Shown: positions 2,472-30,895 of the stretch, one piece after another
Position numbering within the stretch: position 1 is the first letter of the stretch
Layout of the letters: each line of letters opens with the position of its first letter
IMG/VR virus record: IMGVR_UViG_3300037558_000964
Coordinates: 1 to 30,945 of that record
DNA: 30,945 nt
Direction: 5' to 3' (one strand)
From: a virus
The notes under the pieces: generated by a model
Databases searched by the model: none
Told to the model about the DNA's origin: nothing
What the model saw: only the letters and a program-made list of their open reading frames with translations
Translations under genes and position numbers: made by a program

Positions 2472-4563
2472 AGCAAGAGATCGAGCAGACGGAAAAATCA
2501 CTGGCAATATAGTTCCTGCGTCACACGAAGCGTTTAGTCTAGGGTCAGACACGGCTCGATTTAACGATGGCTTTTTCTCAGCATCAACTGTTGATATTGG
2601 TGGTTTAAAAATATCAAAAGACAGCAATGGGGATGCAGAGTTTAAAGATAGCTCTGGTGCATTTAAAAAAATAATTGCTAACGAAATTCAATTAGGTACA
2701 GGTACAGATAAAGTTGTTGTAAAAAGAAATTCAACTACAGGTGCAGTTCAGTTTAATACAAGCGACGGTAGCTCTGAAACTGCGGATGCAGCAGGAGGTG
2801 GCTCTAGCGTAACTGTTTCAGATACTGCCCCTGCATCTCCCTCCGCAGGAGATTTGTGGTATAGTTCGGCTGACCTTAAAATGTACATCTATTACAATGA
2901 TGGCAACTCTAGCCAGTGGGTACAAGTCGGTACTGGTAGTTCTTCTAGTAGTTCAGGGTCAGGTGTTGCAGTCTATGCAAATACAGGTGCGTTGCCCACC
3001 AGTAATAATATTACAGGAAATTTAGCTTTTGTTACGGCTAATACTGGTTTTTATATTTGGAATGGCAGTGGTTGGTATAGAATGGCAGTAGTTAATACTA
3101 CTCCTACAATTTCAGCCCCTAGTTCTGGTGCAAATGTTTCTCTAGCAACAGATGGAACTGCAACTTTAGTTGAAATAACAGCCACAGATACTGATGAAGG
3201 AACTACTCTACAATATTCGTATACAGTATCAACAGGGAGTCTTACGAATGGGGGAGGTGCAACTGCTGCCGTGAGTACATCTAGCACATCTAGTGGTACT
3301 TATTCAGCTTTAAATGCTTCGACAAACACAACAAATAGATTTTTCAAAGTAACTCCGTCTACAAACAGTAGTTATGCAGGGACTTTTAGTCTTACTTTTT
3401 CCGCTACGGATTCTATTAATACTGCTCAAACAACCCAAAACTATACTGCTGCATGGTTTTCTTTTACGACAGCAGCAGGTTCTCTTGGTACACTGTTTAA
3501 TTCGGCTAGAACTGCATCAAATCTAACAACTTCAACAATTGCAGTAACTGGTGCTAGTGTTACGTTTGCATTACAATCTGGAAGTCTCCCTACAGGACTA
3601 AGTTTAGCTTCTAATGGGGTAATTTCTGGTACAGCGAATGCAGTTGGAACTGATGCTACCTCAAACTTTACGATAAGGGCTACTGATAGTACAGGGCTTT
3701 ATGTCGATAGGGCATTTTCTATAATAGTAAAAGCTCCTGTTCAAGTTGCATTTACTTCTAATGGTACTTGGTCTGTCCCAACAGGGATTACTACGGTTGA
3801 AGCCCTTGTTGTTGGTGGCGGTGGTTCTGGAGGATATAATAATACAGCCCGTGGAACTGGTGGTGGTTCTGGAGGACTCATCCACATTACAAACTGGAAT
3901 GTTTCAGGTGCATCATCATATGCAATAACAATCGGAGCAGGGGGAGTCGTGAATAACACTGGAGGTACTCACGCTTCTGGATCTAATACAACCATCGTAG
4001 GGGGATCGAAAACCTTAACGGCTAATGGTGGTGGTCGAGGTGGTGCGGCTGATGGTTCTAATAACAATGAAACTGGAGGATCTGGCGGTGGTGCATGGTA
4101 CGGCTTTACTGGTTCTGCTAACCCCAGAGCAGGAAATCAACCTTCTAATACATCCGATGGTGTAAACACATATAATTCAACTGGATTTGGTAATGCAGGA
4201 GGTACAGGTAGTAATTCCAATCCCTACGGTTCTGGCGGTGGAGGTGCAGGAGCTTCAGGGGGCAATTGGAATGCAGGACAAGATGGCGGAATAGGTAAAG
4301 ACCTTTCCTCTGAATTTGGCACAGCAGTTGGAACTAGTGGTTGGTTTGCTTCTGGTGGTTCATCAACTCCCTATAACGCAGGCACTTTGAGTCCCTCTCT
4401 TGCGGTATTTAATGATAACGCAAATCGTGAATACGGCGGTGGAGGAGATGGTGTAAATAGTACAACTTCACCAGTATCTACTGTAAACGGCATAGCTAAT
4501 ACTGGTGGTGGCGGCGGTGCAGGTGGATCAGGCGGTAGTGGCATAGTCATACTTAAATACTAA
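2464..4563 (+). CDS. Large tail fibre protein with Ig-like and glycine-rich domains
   Basis: A 699-aa modular tail protein. Residues 1-110 form a fibre-like N-terminus with SLGSDTARFNDGFF, typical of the shaft segment preceding phage fibre repeats. Residues about 120-155 hold a short module with AGDLWYSS and WVQV. Residues about 340-422 resemble a putative Ig (He_PIG) domain, with LPTGLSLASNGVISGTA. From about 427 a FTSNGTWSVPTGITTVE motif opens a glycine-rich domain that runs to the end (GGSGIVILKY). This architecture is typical of adhesive tail fibres that recognise the host surface. The start overlaps the oxygenase gene by 8 bases, with CAGGAG about 7 bases upstream. The stop is followed by the AGGAG of the next gene. 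Confidence 0.8.
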   Translation: MSRARDRADGKITGNIVPASHEAFSLGSDTARFNDGFFSASTVDIGGLKISKDSNGDAEFKDSSGAFKKIIANEIQLGTGTDKVVVKRNSTTGAVQFNTSDGSSETADAAGGGSSVTVSDTAPASPSAGDLWYSSADLKMYIYYNDGNSSQWVQVGTGSSSSSSGSGVAVYANTGALPTSNNITGNLAFVTANTGFYIWNGSGWYRMAVVNTTPTISAPSSGANVSLATDGTATLVEITATDTDEGTTLQYSYTVSTGSLTNGGGATAAVSTSSTSSGTYSALNASTNTTNRFFKVTPSTNSSYAGTFSLTFSATDSINTAQTTQNYTAAWFSFTTAAGSLGTLFNSARTASNLTTSTIAVTGASVTFALQSGSLPTGLSLASNGVISGTANAVGTDATSNFTIRATDSTGLYVDRAFSIIVKAPVQVAFTSNGTWSVPTGITTVEALVVGGGGSGGYNNTARGTGGGSGGLIHITNWNVSGASSYAITIGAGGVVNNTGGTHASGSNTTIVGGSKTLTANGGGRGGAADGSNNNETGGSGGGAWYGFTGSANPRAGNQPSNTSDGVNTYNSTGFGNAGGTGSNSNPYGSGGGGAGASGGNWNAGQDGGIGKDLSSEFGTAVGTSGWFASGGSSTPYNAGTLSPSLAVFNDNANREYGGGGDGVNSTTSPVSTVNGIANTGGGGGAGGSGGSGIVILKY

Positions 4564-23960: not shown

Positions 23961-23989
23961 TTTTTAAACTAATACAGTGGCTTAGTCAA
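23961..23989 (-). promoter_or_regulatory. Possible promoter upstream of SSB gene
   Basis: On the minus strand TTGACT (23989-23984), overlapping the polymerase stop codon, is followed after 17 bases by TAAAAA (23966-23961). The -35 is good and the -10 is weak (4 of 6). Confidence 0.3.
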
Positions 23990-26096
23990 GTGGCACTTCA
24001 GATATTTCCATCCAGTTTTTTCCAACTGACATTTCTACATCGAGGGGTATCGATATGTCATAGTCAAACCGCTTTTTTATCTCTGGTGTAATATCTCGCA
24101 TCGACCACACCAAAGCCTTTTTTACTTGGTCTATTTCACTTGGGTGGCAGTCCACCACAATAGAATCATGCACAGTTAAAATCAGTTTTGACTTTAGGTC
24201 TAACTCTTTAAATTTCTTTAATGCTCTGACGCACGATAGGGGAACAATCGTAGCAGTCGCAAAACTTTGACACGGGAAGTTAACAATTTGGGTAGACTGA
24301 CTTACTCGCCCATTTCTAAACTTCTTCACGTTAGGAAAATAGAACTGTCGCCCAGATGGTGTAGTAACTAAACCATTACTTACAACACCTTCTTTTAACT
24401 TAATATGCCACTCTGCCAGCCCCTTATATACATTAAAGAACTCCTTAACATATTTTTGAACGTGAGGTGGTTCTGTGGTCAGCATTCCGCCATAGAGAGG
24501 AGCGAAAGTTGCATACTTATAACGTGATCTCTCGTCTTTAGTTACTTCTAAAGCTGGTTTTTGTAAAACAATTGAAGCCGTCTGCTTATGGATATCTTTG
24601 CCATTGGCGATATCTTCTTCAATTTGTTTGTCGCCTGACAGGATGCCAGCCACCCTAAACTCAAGCCCTGAATAATCAAACTCAACTATACTTCCGTTCT
24701 CAAATCGGCTGACAACAGCCTTTCTAACAGGAAACTTATTGCCTTTAGGTTGATTTTGATAATTTGGTCTAGTTGAACTCAGTCTACCTGTTCTTGTCGT
24801 TGTTTGATTGAACTCAGAGTGAATAAGTCCAGTTTCTCTGGTCCACCTCTTAATGCCCACTACAAAAGAATCTAAGTAAGTATTAATTGCATGAAGCCTT
24901 ATAATTTTAGTGATAAATTCAACTGCAATTGGCTTATTTAATTCATTCGCACGGCTTGTCAGCTTATTAAGAGTAATTTTATCAGTCTTAAAGCCGTTGA
25001 TAGAGGCATCACGTGGGGATAACGGGGCAAGCCGCAAGCCAGCTAATTCACTTTGGGGTACATAGATAGCACCAAGCCCATCGCACATGGTACACTTAGA
25101 TATATTCTTGTACGGGTCACCATTTTTCTTGTACTTTTGAATAACCCCCTTGCCGTTACAGACTTTGCAAGTATGGGCCACAGTTTTATAAACTTTCCTT
25201 GTGGTTGCTCTTACAGAATCAACAAATTTTCGATCATTCATGCGAGGGGCTGGTAAAGGCTTACCTTGGGGGTTTACACCAATATTCCAAATATTTCTGT
25301 GGACCTCACGATCAATAACAGAGCGACTATATATAACAGTCGAGAGGTCTGCCCCTGATTGTAAATTAATAGGAGTATCCCCCATCACTTGCTCAACAAG
25401 TTCTTTTAGACGAGATTGAATTTCTGTTTTCTCAGCAACATAATCACGCTCAACCTCTAGAAGGGTGGGCATATCAATTTTAATACCATTTCGTTCAATC
25501 TCGACGAGAAACTGAAGCATATCCATCGAAAGATCAAACTCTGGTTTTAAACCTTTGTTGTATTGCGTTTCCAAATCCCGTTGCTGTTCGACGTAAATAT
25601 CACGGCACGACAAAACGTCCGCCTCTAAATATTCTAGAACTTTAGCTAATTCTATTTCTTCAAAGCCTTTCCCAGCTTTAAACTCCGCATCCACAAGGTC
25701 AGACTTTTTGAGCGTCACTCGCCGTCGCACGGCAGTCTCTTTTAATGACTTTGAAATATTCATCTGCCCTCTAGCAAACAAATACTCACCAATCATAGTA
25801 CAGTAAATCGTTTCAGGAAGTTTGAAACCTCTTTCAAGTAACTGCAATGTATCGAACTTGGCGTTATGGCAGACCAAAATCTTTTTAGCCGCAAGCCTAG
25901 AGTCCAAGAGAGAACGACTGTCTGGAGTCTCTTTCTCAAGGTGATGAAATACAGAATGTTCGTACCCGTATTCTTCTGTCCACCAACCAAGTGCCACCAA
26001 TTTATTTTTCGGGTTTTTAGCAGAATTGTCGATAACTCCATCTTCTTTTCGATCAACCGTAGTTTCTGCATCCAATACAATTATATCACTCAACAT
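23982..26096 (-). CDS. Family A DNA polymerase with 3'-5' exonuclease and DnaJ-like zinc-finger insert
   Basis: A 704-aa replicative polymerase. The exonuclease domain has LDAETT (Asp9, Glu11), CHNAKFD (His77, Asp82) and EYLEAD (Tyr156, Asp160). The polymerase domain has motif A FDYSGLEF (Asp474), motif B YKYATFAPLYGG (Lys527, Phe531, Tyr535) and motif C TVHDS (His643, Asp644). Between them, residues 310-342 carry CKVCNGKG and CTMCDGLG, two CxxCxGxG units, half of a DnaJ central zinc domain. This insertion is known from HMO-2011 and supports that relationship. Phe531 aligns with E. coli Pol I Phe762. The start overlaps the helicase gene by 11 bases, with AGAGG about ten bases upstream. Confidence 0.93.
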   Translation of the reverse strand: MLSDIIVLDAETTVDRKEDGVIDNSAKNPKNKLVALGWWTEEYGYEHSVFHHLEKETPDSRSLLDSRLAAKKILVCHNAKFDTLQLLERGFKLPETIYCTMIGEYLFARGQMNISKSLKETAVRRRVTLKKSDLVDAEFKAGKGFEEIELAKVLEYLEADVLSCRDIYVEQQRDLETQYNKGLKPEFDLSMDMLQFLVEIERNGIKIDMPTLLEVERDYVAEKTEIQSRLKELVEQVMGDTPINLQSGADLSTVIYSRSVIDREVHRNIWNIGVNPQGKPLPAPRMNDRKFVDSVRATTRKVYKTVAHTCKVCNGKGVIQKYKKNGDPYKNISKCTMCDGLGAIYVPQSELAGLRLAPLSPRDASINGFKTDKITLNKLTSRANELNKPIAVEFITKIIRLHAINTYLDSFVVGIKRWTRETGLIHSEFNQTTTRTGRLSSTRPNYQNQPKGNKFPVRKAVVSRFENGSIVEFDYSGLEFRVAGILSGDKQIEEDIANGKDIHKQTASIVLQKPALEVTKDERSRYKYATFAPLYGGMLTTEPPHVQKYVKEFFNVYKGLAEWHIKLKEGVVSNGLVTTPSGRQFYFPNVKKFRNGRVSQSTQIVNFPCQSFATATIVPLSCVRALKKFKELDLKSKLILTVHDSIVVDCHPSEIDQVKKALVWSMRDITPEIKKRFDYDISIPLDVEMSVGKNWMEISEVPLD

Positions 26097-27789: not shown

Positions 27790-27918
27790 TTATATGTTGG
27801 GTTTCGGAGGAGCGGTTTGATTGTTACACCAAGCTGACTTTTTAAGATAACAATATCCGCCGCCGTAAAGGATAAATCCGACTCGATACACGGTTAAAGG
27901 TTTTATATTATACTTCAT
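27790..27918 (-). CDS. Short hypothetical protein after primase
   Basis: A 42-aa frame beginning MKYNIKPLTVYRVGFILYGG and ending TAPPKPNI. Its ATG overlaps the primase stop (ATGA at 27915-27918), and AGAGGGG lies about seven bases upstream, strong signs of translation. There is a short aromatic, glycine-containing hydrophobic stretch (residues 10-24) but not a full membrane span, then a proline-rich end. No function can be named. Confidence 0.55.
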   Translation of the reverse strand: MKYNIKPLTVYRVGFILYGGGYCYLKKSAWCNNQTAPPKPNI

Positions 27919-28694
27919 GACACTACCCCTCTTATCTCTCGCTCACTCAGGTTTTTTAAATCTTTTTTAGTCATACGCACCACACTCGTTACAAAATTGT
28001 TAATTTTCTTAGAAACATTTATTGCCTTGCTACTTGCGTCAGCATCAAGAACAACAATTACTTTTTTAAATGATTTTAACTGCACACACTTCTGTATGTT
28101 TATAGATGTTCCTAAAAGTGCAATTCCAGTAAACTCTTTAAGTCTTGATACACTACAGGCGGAAGGTACGTCTTCTACTACAACAGCCGTAGAACCTGTT
28201 CCAACTGCAAACAGATCTTTTGTATCTCCGTAGCTCACCCATTTTGGCATTTGATTATATAAAGCCCTTCCAATTGCACCTAAGTAAGTCTTATTATAAA
28301 AAACAACTCTCTTGTCAATAGGGGAATACTTAATATCTATAAGTTTATTAACGTAAGCCTCATAACTATTACATTTTTTTAGGTAGGTTATAGCCTCTAA
28401 GTGATGTTCGACGTTAGATATAATTGTGGGCAAAGCCTTTGATTTGTTAGGTGACTCAATAACAGGAGACTTATCTAAGGCTCGTCTACAACTGTCTATG
28501 GACCTATTTGTATAATATGCACCTTTAGCAAAGCACGACGCTTTAAAACAATTCCAAAGGATTTTACCGTTACTAGTACGGGAAATAGTAAACTTCTTTC
28601 TTCCACCGCAGAAAGGGCAATCAAGCGTAAGCCTGTCACCCTCTCTTAAAGTGATGTTTTGGATTAACTCCAGTTGTTCAGATCTACTAAACAT
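27915..28694 (-). CDS. DNA primase, zinc ribbon plus TOPRIM domain
   Basis: A 259-aa DnaG-type primase that would lay RNA primers for the phage polymerase. The zinc ribbon is CPFCGG and CFKASC (Cys26, 29, 49, 54). The TOPRIM core has the conserved glutamate in VVVEDVPSA (Glu174) and the DxD motif in VVLDADAS (Asp217, Asp219). It is shorter than bacterial DnaG and lacks a helicase domain. In T7 the two functions share one protein, while here the helicase is separate. It starts right after the 119-aa gene with no strong Shine-Dalgarno, implying coupling, and ends in an ATGA overlap with a 42-aa gene. Confidence 0.87.
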   Translation of the reverse strand: MFSRSEQLELIQNITLREGDRLTLDCPFCGGRKKFTISRTSNGKILWNCFKASCFAKGAYYTNRSIDSCRRALDKSPVIESPNKSKALPTIISNVEHHLEAITYLKKCNSYEAYVNKLIDIKYSPIDKRVVFYNKTYLGAIGRALYNQMPKWVSYGDTKDLFAVGTGSTAVVVEDVPSACSVSRLKEFTGIALLGTSINIQKCVQLKSFKKVIVVLDADASSKAINVSKKINNFVTSVVRMTKKDLKNLSEREIRGVVS

Positions 28695-28695
28695 T

Positions 28696-29055
28696 TTAGG
28701 CTACTGGAAGTTCTGGAGAAACGTATATGAGAAAGACAGGAGATTCTCCAGTAGGAATGTTTGGACGTTCTGCAAACCAGACGTAATCTCCAACGTCTGC
28801 ATACTTTCTCAATTTAGGTATGCTCATACGCTGATCACCTCGTTTGGTTTTGTAGAATTTAATCTTTACTTCTTCTCCGTCTGGATAATCTAAGAATGAT
28901 TTAGCAAAGACGGCATTAACGTATTTATCAGAACCATTTAATGTAATACCAAATTGATTTCGTATCCCAGCTTTAGCGTCTATGATGTATTTACCAACCA
29001 TAGTAGGAGTGAGTTTAAGGTATAACTTTTTTTCTACGAATACTTTATTCCACAT
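28696..29055 (-). CDS. Hypothetical protein in early operon
   Basis: A 119-aa protein I do not recognise. It has alternating strands, with KLYLKLTPTMVGKYIID, a NAVFAKSFLDYPDGEEVKIKFY block and YADVGDYVWFAERP near the end. That pattern of small beta-domain with basic patches recalls a compact nucleic-acid-binding fold, but this is only an impression. It follows directly after the 70-aa gene (TAA then ATG with no spacing), has AAGGAGAG upstream, and is followed by primase two bases later. Placement between the promoter and primase suggests an early function. Confidence 0.6.
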   Translation of the reverse strand: MWNKVFVEKKLYLKLTPTMVGKYIIDAKAGIRNQFGITLNGSDKYVNAVFAKSFLDYPDGEEVKIKFYKTKRGDQRMSIPKLRKYADVGDYVWFAERPNIPTGESPVFLIYVSPELPVA

Positions 29056-29268
29056 TTAAGTTCTCTCCTTACTTTTCCACTCGTTTCCATTCCATTCGTT
29101 TGCCTCTTCCAGCATCTCAATCTTAGTCATAATTTCTACCGCAAGATCTAGTCTGCCTTGGATTACTTGTAGTTCCATTTCAGGTGCTTTGTTAACACCC
29201 CACTCATCTAGTAATCGGTTGCACTCCCATCTTTCTAATCTAAGCCATCTTTTTATCTTCTTCTTCAT
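29056..29268 (-). CDS. Small basic hypothetical protein, first gene after the early promoter
   Basis: A 70-aa protein with a very basic N-terminus (MKKKIKRWLRLERWECNRLL) and a helical acidic C-terminus (IMTKIEMLEEANEW). There is no known motif. The strongly charged halves would suit a small DNA- or protein-binding factor. GAGG lies about seven bases before ATG 29268. The 18-base leader repeat at 29285-29302 and the promoter at 29339-29366 lie directly upstream, so this would be the first product of that transcript. Confidence 0.6.
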   Translation of the reverse strand: MKKKIKRWLRLERWECNRLLDEWGVNKAPEMELQVIQGRLDLAVEIMTKIEMLEEANEWNGNEWKSKERT

Positions 29269-29366: not shown

Positions 29367-29445
29367 GCCACTTAATTAGTGTAAGTTATGGGCCTAACAC
29401 CTCGTATCCCTATTAAGTCATTGATTTTAAAGGAGAACCAACCAC

Positions 29446-29483
29446 CCTGAAGGTCGTAGGTTCAAATCCTACCCCCGCAACCA
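29446..29483 (+). other. attP: attP core: 3' end of a tRNA, probably initiator tRNA-Met
   Basis: The 38 bases contain part of an anticodon stem (CCTGA), variable loop AGGTC, T-stem-loop GTAGG-TTCAAAT-CCTAC, acceptor strand CCCCGCA, discriminator A and CCA. No 5' half of a tRNA is present, so this is a fragment. E. coli fMet ends almost identically, and A at position 72 fits the unpaired C1-A72 of initiators; the CCTGA stem and GTAGG arm fit alphaproteobacterial versions as I know them. With an integrase 310 bases away, this is the phage attachment core that would rebuild the host tRNA on integration. Confidence 0.8.
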
Positions 29484-29609
29484 AGTTATTGTTTTCATTG
29501 GATTTTATTTTTAAAAAATGCCCAAATCGTGGTAATGGTAACTTTTGGTAACGAAATGAGCATTTTTTTAGATTTTAGTGATTTATTTGTCGTATTTAAA
29601 ACCGAATCA
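29484..29609. repeat. attP arm region with direct and inverted repeats
   Basis: The AT-rich stretch beside the attP core holds TGGTAA(C/T) three times (29530, 29536, 29546). Two inverted repeats flank it: AAAAAATGC (29513-29521) with GCATTTTTT (29560-29568), and TTAGTGATT (29575-29583) with AATCACTAA (29605-29613). Such arrays suit integrase arm-type or accessory-factor sites. No gene is visible on either strand here. The other side (29367-29445) holds only an imperfect palindrome at 29389-29410. Confidence 0.45.
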
Positions 29610-29762
29610 CTAATATTTTCCTGTAACTTTTAAATAAAGAATTTCCAGTGTTGTCGAAACAGCTATCAGGGGCCAAAATATAGCTGTAACAACTATGTTT
29701 CCTTTTGGCACTTTATAGTCCACCATCATCTCCATTAGTAAAATACTACCAAGACAATGCAT
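29610..29762 (-). CDS. Small membrane protein candidate between integrase and attP
   Basis: A 50-aa frame from ATG 29762 with one hydrophobic span (about residues 24-44, NIVVTAIFWPLIAVSTTLEI) and a short polar end. It would be a single-pass membrane protein of unknown role. The integrase stop is followed by AAGGAGAG, in the same frame, but the first ATG is about 25 bases on, too far for that site. An internal start closer to GGAG (residues 10-15) is possible. Inverted repeats (ACAGCTAT at 29659-29666 and ATAGCTGT at 29680-29687) overlap it, so part of this sequence may instead be attP structure. Confidence 0.4.
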   Translation of the reverse strand: MHCLGSILLMEMMVDYKVPKGNIVVTAIFWPLIAVSTTLEILYLKVTGKY

Positions 29763-29792
29763 TGCTATGTAAATGTATATAATTATCTCTCC

Positions 29793-30869
29793 TTATCCAA
29801 ATCTCTTCATAAGACCCGTTGTAGCCATTTTCTTGGTAGGTCGTACATAAGTAGACAGTATGTTTCTAGACAGATGGCCCGTGACTGATCTGAGTTCGTC
29901 TTCTGTACAGCCAGCCTCTGCCATCTCCGTAGCACCTGTACGTCGTAAGTCCATTAGTTTTAATTCAGACGGTAAGCCAGCCTCTATGCGTATTCTCTGG
30001 GCATACTTATTATATAGTCTGTTGTCCGAATAATGATTGCCTGTAGTCTCACAGATTACAATCTTATTAGTTGGTTCACCTCTTGTTAATGTTTCGATCC
30101 TTTCAAGCAATCTAGGTGAAAGTTGAAGGTCCACTTCTACTCCAGTTTTCTTTTGTTTAAACCGAAAACTAGTGCCATCAAAATTACCCCACGTTAAAAG
30201 TCTCATGTCACTTACTCTCTGGCAAGTGTCGTAGCACATCAAAGCTATTGTACCTATAGAACTAAATCCCATCTTATCAGCGGTGTTAATAAAGTGGAAC
30301 ACTTGTTCCTTTTCCCATAAAACTACTCTAGAAGGTATTCCCTTTAATCCCATCTTAGCGAAGGGGTTCATACGCACTTTTTGATGCTTTAAAGCAATCA
30401 TAAAGAGCCGCCTAAGTACCTTACACATATGTGTAGCCCTGTGCTGGCTATATGTATCACGCACTTGTTTGTATAGTGTCTCCGTAAACTGGCTATCCAC
30501 GTTTCTCAATAGCATCTCACCAAAAAACGTCCGACTTTCACCGATTTTAGTTAAACAAGCCTGTCGAAATAAAGAATCATACGCCACCTTACTGTTACGG
30601 GCTAAGTTCTCATAAGTAAGTGATGTTTTATAGAACCGAATAAAGCCAGCCACGGTGTTTTCATCTTTACTTATCTGTGGATGTTTTCCGTCAAGATAGT
30701 TTTTGTATTCCTCGTCCATTTGACGACACCGAAATACGGCATCCTCCAAATGATCGAAGGTTTCGTTTGTAATTAAAAGAGAATCCCTTAAAGCCTTACT
30801 TGGATTTGCTCTCCAAGTCACAACTCCCCTGTTACTCACTCTTTTCGATAAATATTTGACTTTTGTCAT
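29793..30869 (-). CDS. int: Tyrosine recombinase / phage integrase
   Basis: A 358-aa integrase that would recombine attP with the host tRNA gene. Residues about 70-165 form the SAM-like core-binding domain. The catalytic domain has Arg218 in TCQRVSDM, a lysine in the QKKTG hairpin (240/241), box II MDLRRTGAT with Arg309, His332 in TGHLS and nucleophile Tyr341 in STYVRP. The usual histidine of H-x-x-R is Met306. I start at ATG 30869, five bases after AAGGAG, rather than at GTG 30875. A promoter lies 27 bases upstream and the attP core about 310 bases downstream. No repressor or excisionase is recognised in the window. Confidence 0.9.
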   Translation of the reverse strand: MTKVKYLSKRVSNRGVVTWRANPSKALRDSLLITNETFDHLEDAVFRCRQMDEEYKNYLDGKHPQISKDENTVAGFIRFYKTSLTYENLARNSKVAYDSLFRQACLTKIGESRTFFGEMLLRNVDSQFTETLYKQVRDTYSQHRATHMCKVLRRLFMIALKHQKVRMNPFAKMGLKGIPSRVVLWEKEQVFHFINTADKMGFSSIGTIALMCYDTCQRVSDMRLLTWGNFDGTSFRFKQKKTGVEVDLQLSPRLLERIETLTRGEPTNKIVICETTGNHYSDNRLYNKYAQRIRIEAGLPSELKLMDLRRTGATEMAEAGCTEDELRSVTGHLSRNILSTYVRPTKKMATTGLMKRFG

Positions 30870-30895
30870 TTGCACTCCTTGTTGGTAGGCCTATG

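Follow-up and report, generated by a model that had tools for sequence, protein, structure and literature searches.

Integration into a tRNA gene has been documented for the Roseobacter phage CRP-3, a podophage of the HMO-2011 type: its insertion into a tRNA-Met(CAT) gene of FZCC0040 was verified by sequencing and PCR, and the integration core overlaps the 3' end of the tRNA (Zhang et al. 2019, PMC6918029). An integrase is present in most members of subgroups I and III of these phages (Qin et al. 2022, PMC9038755), and their polymerase has a partial DnaJ insert bearing two CXXCXGXG motifs (PMC6918029). The subject of this study is a 38-nt tRNA fragment beside a tyrosine integrase gene in the viral contig IMGVR_UViG_3300037558_000964, a linear IMG/VR record of 30,945 bases that is called the window below. 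With a probability of about 0.94, this fragment serves a temperate podophage of the HMO-2011 type, similar to CRP-3, as its attachment site (attP) and is recombined by the adjacent integrase with the 3' half of the host initiator tRNA-Met gene. Genomes of the CRP-3 subgroup measure about 52-55 kb; the window is a 31-kb fragment of such a podophage, and its isolate relatives are CRP-3, CRP-212 and CRP-235.

The attP core, CCTGAAGGTCGTAGGTTCAAATCCTACCCCCGCAACCA, occupies positions 29446-29483 on the plus strand and corresponds to an initiator tRNA-Met(CAT) from nt 39 to the CCA end: the 3' strand of the anticodon stem, the variable loop, a perfect T arm GTAGG-TTCAAAT-CCTAC, the acceptor strand CCCCGCA and ACCA. 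It is an exact 38-nt copy, free of mismatches, of the 3' end of alphaproteobacterial initiator genes (L195, L196, L198). These host genes are 77 nt long, are called as tRNA-Met CAT and have the sequence CGCGGGGTGGAGCAGCCCGGTAGCTCGTCAGGCTCATAACCTGAAGGTCGTAGGTTCAAATCCTACCCCCGCAACCA, i.e., CGCGGGGTGGAGCAGCCCGGTAGCTCGTCAGGCTCATAACCTGAAGG...CCCCCGCAACCA, in which C1 stands opposite A72. A C1-A72 mismatch is the established hallmark of initiator tRNAs. An elongator-type CAT tRNA (L199) shows many mismatches to the core, and chance cannot account for an exact tRNA match of 38 nt. ARAGORN found no complete tRNA in the window, so the core is a fragment; the tRNA 5' half is nowhere in the window. The sole match of an Rfam scan, isrF, was below threshold and unrelated to the core. 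The first-pass annotation, made from the letters alone, had placed a tRNA 3' half with CCA at the same position and had described it as a fragment, which the exact match and the ARAGORN result confirm. Its assignment of attP to an initiator tRNA-Met also stands, given the exact match and the C1/A72 pair of the host genes; the exact host match lies in initiator genes and the elongator-type gene departs from it.

The integrase gene (29793-30875, minus strand) is intact, encodes 360 amino acids and matches Pfam PF00589 and the PHROG integrase family. The core lies 309 nt downstream of it. On the other side of attP is a DNA primase gene (27915-28694, minus strand); between the two, at 28696-29268, are two small open reading frames (ORFs) without family matches, of which the one beside attP (29056-29268, minus strand) has no assigned function. 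The early module is of the HMO-2011 type, with primase, helicase, polymerase and B12-dependent ribonucleotide reductase. The polymerase ORF (23982-26096, minus strand) shares 58.6% identity with the CRP-3 polymerase and bears the motifs CKVCNGKG and CTMCDGLG. The best integrase and polymerase matches were in the CRP-3 subgroup (CRP-3, CRP-235 and CRP-212), and the integrase stands upstream of the primase-helicase-polymerase module in the gene order of CRP-3. This arrangement bears on the possibility that the window represents one end of a prophage, attR or attL, next to host DNA. A displaced attR fragment does look like a lone tRNA 3' half, as exemplified by L002:66-104 (minus strand) in a contig of a Rhodospirillaceae metagenome-assembled genome, where a lone initiator 3' half lies downstream of phoB/phoU/pst genes and is followed by a terminator-like sequence. 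In the window, however, the core has phage genes to either side, primase on the left and integrase on the right as in CRP-3, and no host genes were seen next to it; the core is thus attP in unintegrated DNA, and a prophage junction is very improbable.

At such an attP, the tyrosine integrase would recombine the core with the matching 3' half of the host initiator gene. The host 5' half would be joined to the identical, phage-borne 3' half, so that a working initiator tRNA would be rebuilt, and the displaced host 3' half would mark the other end of the prophage. Actual integration is known for CRP-3, and by analogy the window phage would integrate in the same way. Since the integration of CRP-3 has been published, the mechanism is already known and the window phage is a further member; the sequence of the CRP-3 attP indicates that the tRNA-Met(CAT) gene reported as its site of integration is that of the initiator.

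The arrangement is widespread among the relatives. Of 69 related IMG/VR contigs, 63 have an initiator 3' half near an integrase, and so have CRP-3, CRP-212 and CRP-235, where its orientation relative to the integrase gene is that of the window; these 66 loci and the window gave a set of 67 sequences for conservation. The variant GTAGG...CCTACTCCCGCAACCA occurs in 57 of these 67, the exact 38-mer of the window only in the window and in L175. In 63 of the 69 relatives the fragment has nearly the same left limit and the 5' half is absent. A decayed remnant of a complete, phage-carried tRNA-fMet gene, without function as an attachment site, would not be expected to stop at one place; CRP-3 moreover integrates at this type of fragment, and decay is a most unlikely origin of the element. 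Integration at the initiator tRNA is a clade-wide trait of CRP-3-like phages.

Five loci of the clade (L141, L147, L168, L179 and L181) carry the 3' half of a different tRNA, ending in GGCCTACCA. The form in L141, L147 and L168 matches the host gene L199, a non-initiator gene called as tRNA-Met(CAT); the host gene match was made for this form, to which the fragments of L179 and L181 are similar. Within one integrase clade, these five loci apparently switched their target to a non-initiator CAT tRNA. L131, L141 and L147 deviate from the rest of the clade in having the tRNA fragment upstream of the integrase gene and in the reverse relative orientation. The more distant phage CRP-738 (L200), with an integrase 30% identical, has near its integrase gene a fragment at about 2934-2990 (minus strand) that reads as the 3' part of a tRNA-Asn and is apparently its attP.

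The sequences around the core include conserved elements. To the left, where the window reads ...GAACCAACCAC, the element TAAGTCATTGATTTTA (29414-29429, plus strand) is conserved in the clade; its TAANNCATTG part (29414-29423) has a fixed spacing to the core and is conserved in many members. To the right, where the core is followed by AGTTATTGTTTTCATTGG, the element TATTGTTTTCATTGGATTTT (29487-29506, plus strand) contains two ATTG units 9 nt apart, the pair lying at 29487-29500, and is likewise conserved in many members. These CATTG elements are probably arm-type sites, the left one for the integrase or Xis and the right one as a right-arm site. No exact copy of the extended attP of the window was present in IMG/VR.

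Several observations weigh against a functioning integration system. The xDLRRTG box of the integrase begins with Met, at a position occupied by Arg in 71 of 73 aligned sequences. Scanning of ORFs in the window fragment identified neither a repressor nor an excisionase. The integrase was found in none of 292 genomes of the order of genome G338 (E<=1e-30), a search that had no positive control and proves little, and a second alphaproteobacterial order was represented by one genome only. The unusual Met, the lack of a repressor among the scanned ORFs and the absence of prophages from the 292 genomes would all fit a phage that is in practice obligately lytic, its attP and integrase being an inherited relic. 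Against this, CRP-3 is demonstrably integrative, and the clade, with integrases only about 45% identical to that of the window, has kept an intact core, intact flanking elements and intact catalytic residues (R, K, R, H and Y). We regard a relic as improbable, albeit less so than decay or a prophage junction, and favour a functional attP.

The left edge of the fragment bears on the position of strand exchange. In the place of the anticodon loop (CTCATAA) the window has CAACCAC (29439-29445, plus strand), with only two of seven positions identical, so the homology to the bacterial attachment site (attB) begins at nt 39. CRP-3 matches the loop at four of seven positions (CGTATAC). Across a set of 50 dereplicated attP sequences of the clade, the loop identity was partial: 100% for A37, 62% for A38, 80% for C34 and 16% for T33; the whole loop is kept in eight clade loci. 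Among the matches listed for other viral contigs, all 87 partial initiator fragments contain the whole loop CTCATAA. An identical overlap is required for strand exchange, and the phage must supply everything 3' of the crossover; on these grounds the crossover of the clade is most likely located at about nt 39-45 of the tRNA. A further proposal, which we put somewhat below even odds, is that the integrase clade of CRP-3 crosses over in the 3' strand of the anticodon stem (about nt 39-45) instead of in the anticodon loop, and that the initiator target was mostly kept but exchanged in places, for tRNA-Asn in CRP-738 and apparently for a non-initiator CAT tRNA in five loci.

The first-pass annotation had regarded an initiator gene as an unusual target and, being essential, as one that ties integration tightly to its reconstruction. 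The rarity does not hold. The exact 35-nt 3' end of the initiator occurs in at least 120 IMG/VR stretches, and 87 of the 120 matches listed are partial tRNAs only; at least 87 other viral contigs thus carry such fragments, many beside integrases. Among the matches listed, 32 of 71 ORFs near partial fragments match Phage_integrase, with several N-terminal architectures. Across viral contigs in general, the initiator gene is frequently targeted. The argument from essentiality is weakened as well: many alphaproteobacteria possess several identical initiator copies, up to seven in one genome, so the loss of one need not be lethal.

The same annotation had read the host group Alphaproteobacteria from the core, which is correct for the class but goes no finer. 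Of the genomes sampled across the class, 119 of 385 had an exact loop-to-CCA initiator sequence of the window type, as did 134 of 148 genomes from a single order. Replicons on which the exact 77-mer of the window variant lies include those of Pseudorhodobacter, Rhodovulum, Novosphingobium and Nitratireductor. It occurs in Rhodobacterales, Sphingomonadales and Rhizobiales, and with three orders the sequence names the class only. The TCCCGC variant was found in Sulfitobacter, Loktanella and Thioclava. From the kinship with roseophages, the host order is most likely Rhodobacterales. The acceptor CCCCGC, as opposed to TCCCGC in CRP-3, suggests that the host is not the RCA strain infected by CRP-3. 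The contig L002, the sole exact 39-nt match among genome contigs, was rejected as host, its match being a 3' fragment and not a full tRNA; a displaced att fragment or an assembly chimera is possible. An uncultured marine phage is thus linked with hosts among the Alphaproteobacteria, probably roseobacters, and with a temperate life cycle.

CRP-3 (MK613345, subgroup III) remains the closest described system. Its integrase shares 45% of the amino acids with that of the window, and its attP is likewise an initiator tRNA 3' half with the same orientation relative to the integrase gene. The two differ in the end of attP, TCCCGCAACCA in CRP-3 and CCCCGCAACCA in the window, and in the thymidylate synthase gene that CRP-3 has between integrase and attP, which is missing from the corresponding interval of the window (29484-29792). 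A 38-nt megablast against phages gave no matches but carries no information, since CRP-3 is one internal base off and offers no sufficiently long exact run. CRP-212, CRP-235 and IMG/VR relatives such as L175, for which no published integration test was found, share the integrase and the initiator 3' half; most have the TCCCGC acceptor variant, whereas the 38-mer of L175 is identical to that of the window. The attP of the window is ordinary in kind, and a modest added interest lies in the displaced left edge and in the target switching. Among the tRNA sites catalogued by Islander, those centred on the anticodon form a main class (PMC4383910). The clade resembles these class A sites in that attP carries a tRNA 3' fragment by which the gene is made whole again upon insertion, but differs from them in that its identity need not cover the 7-nt anticodon loop and begins, in the window, at nt 39.
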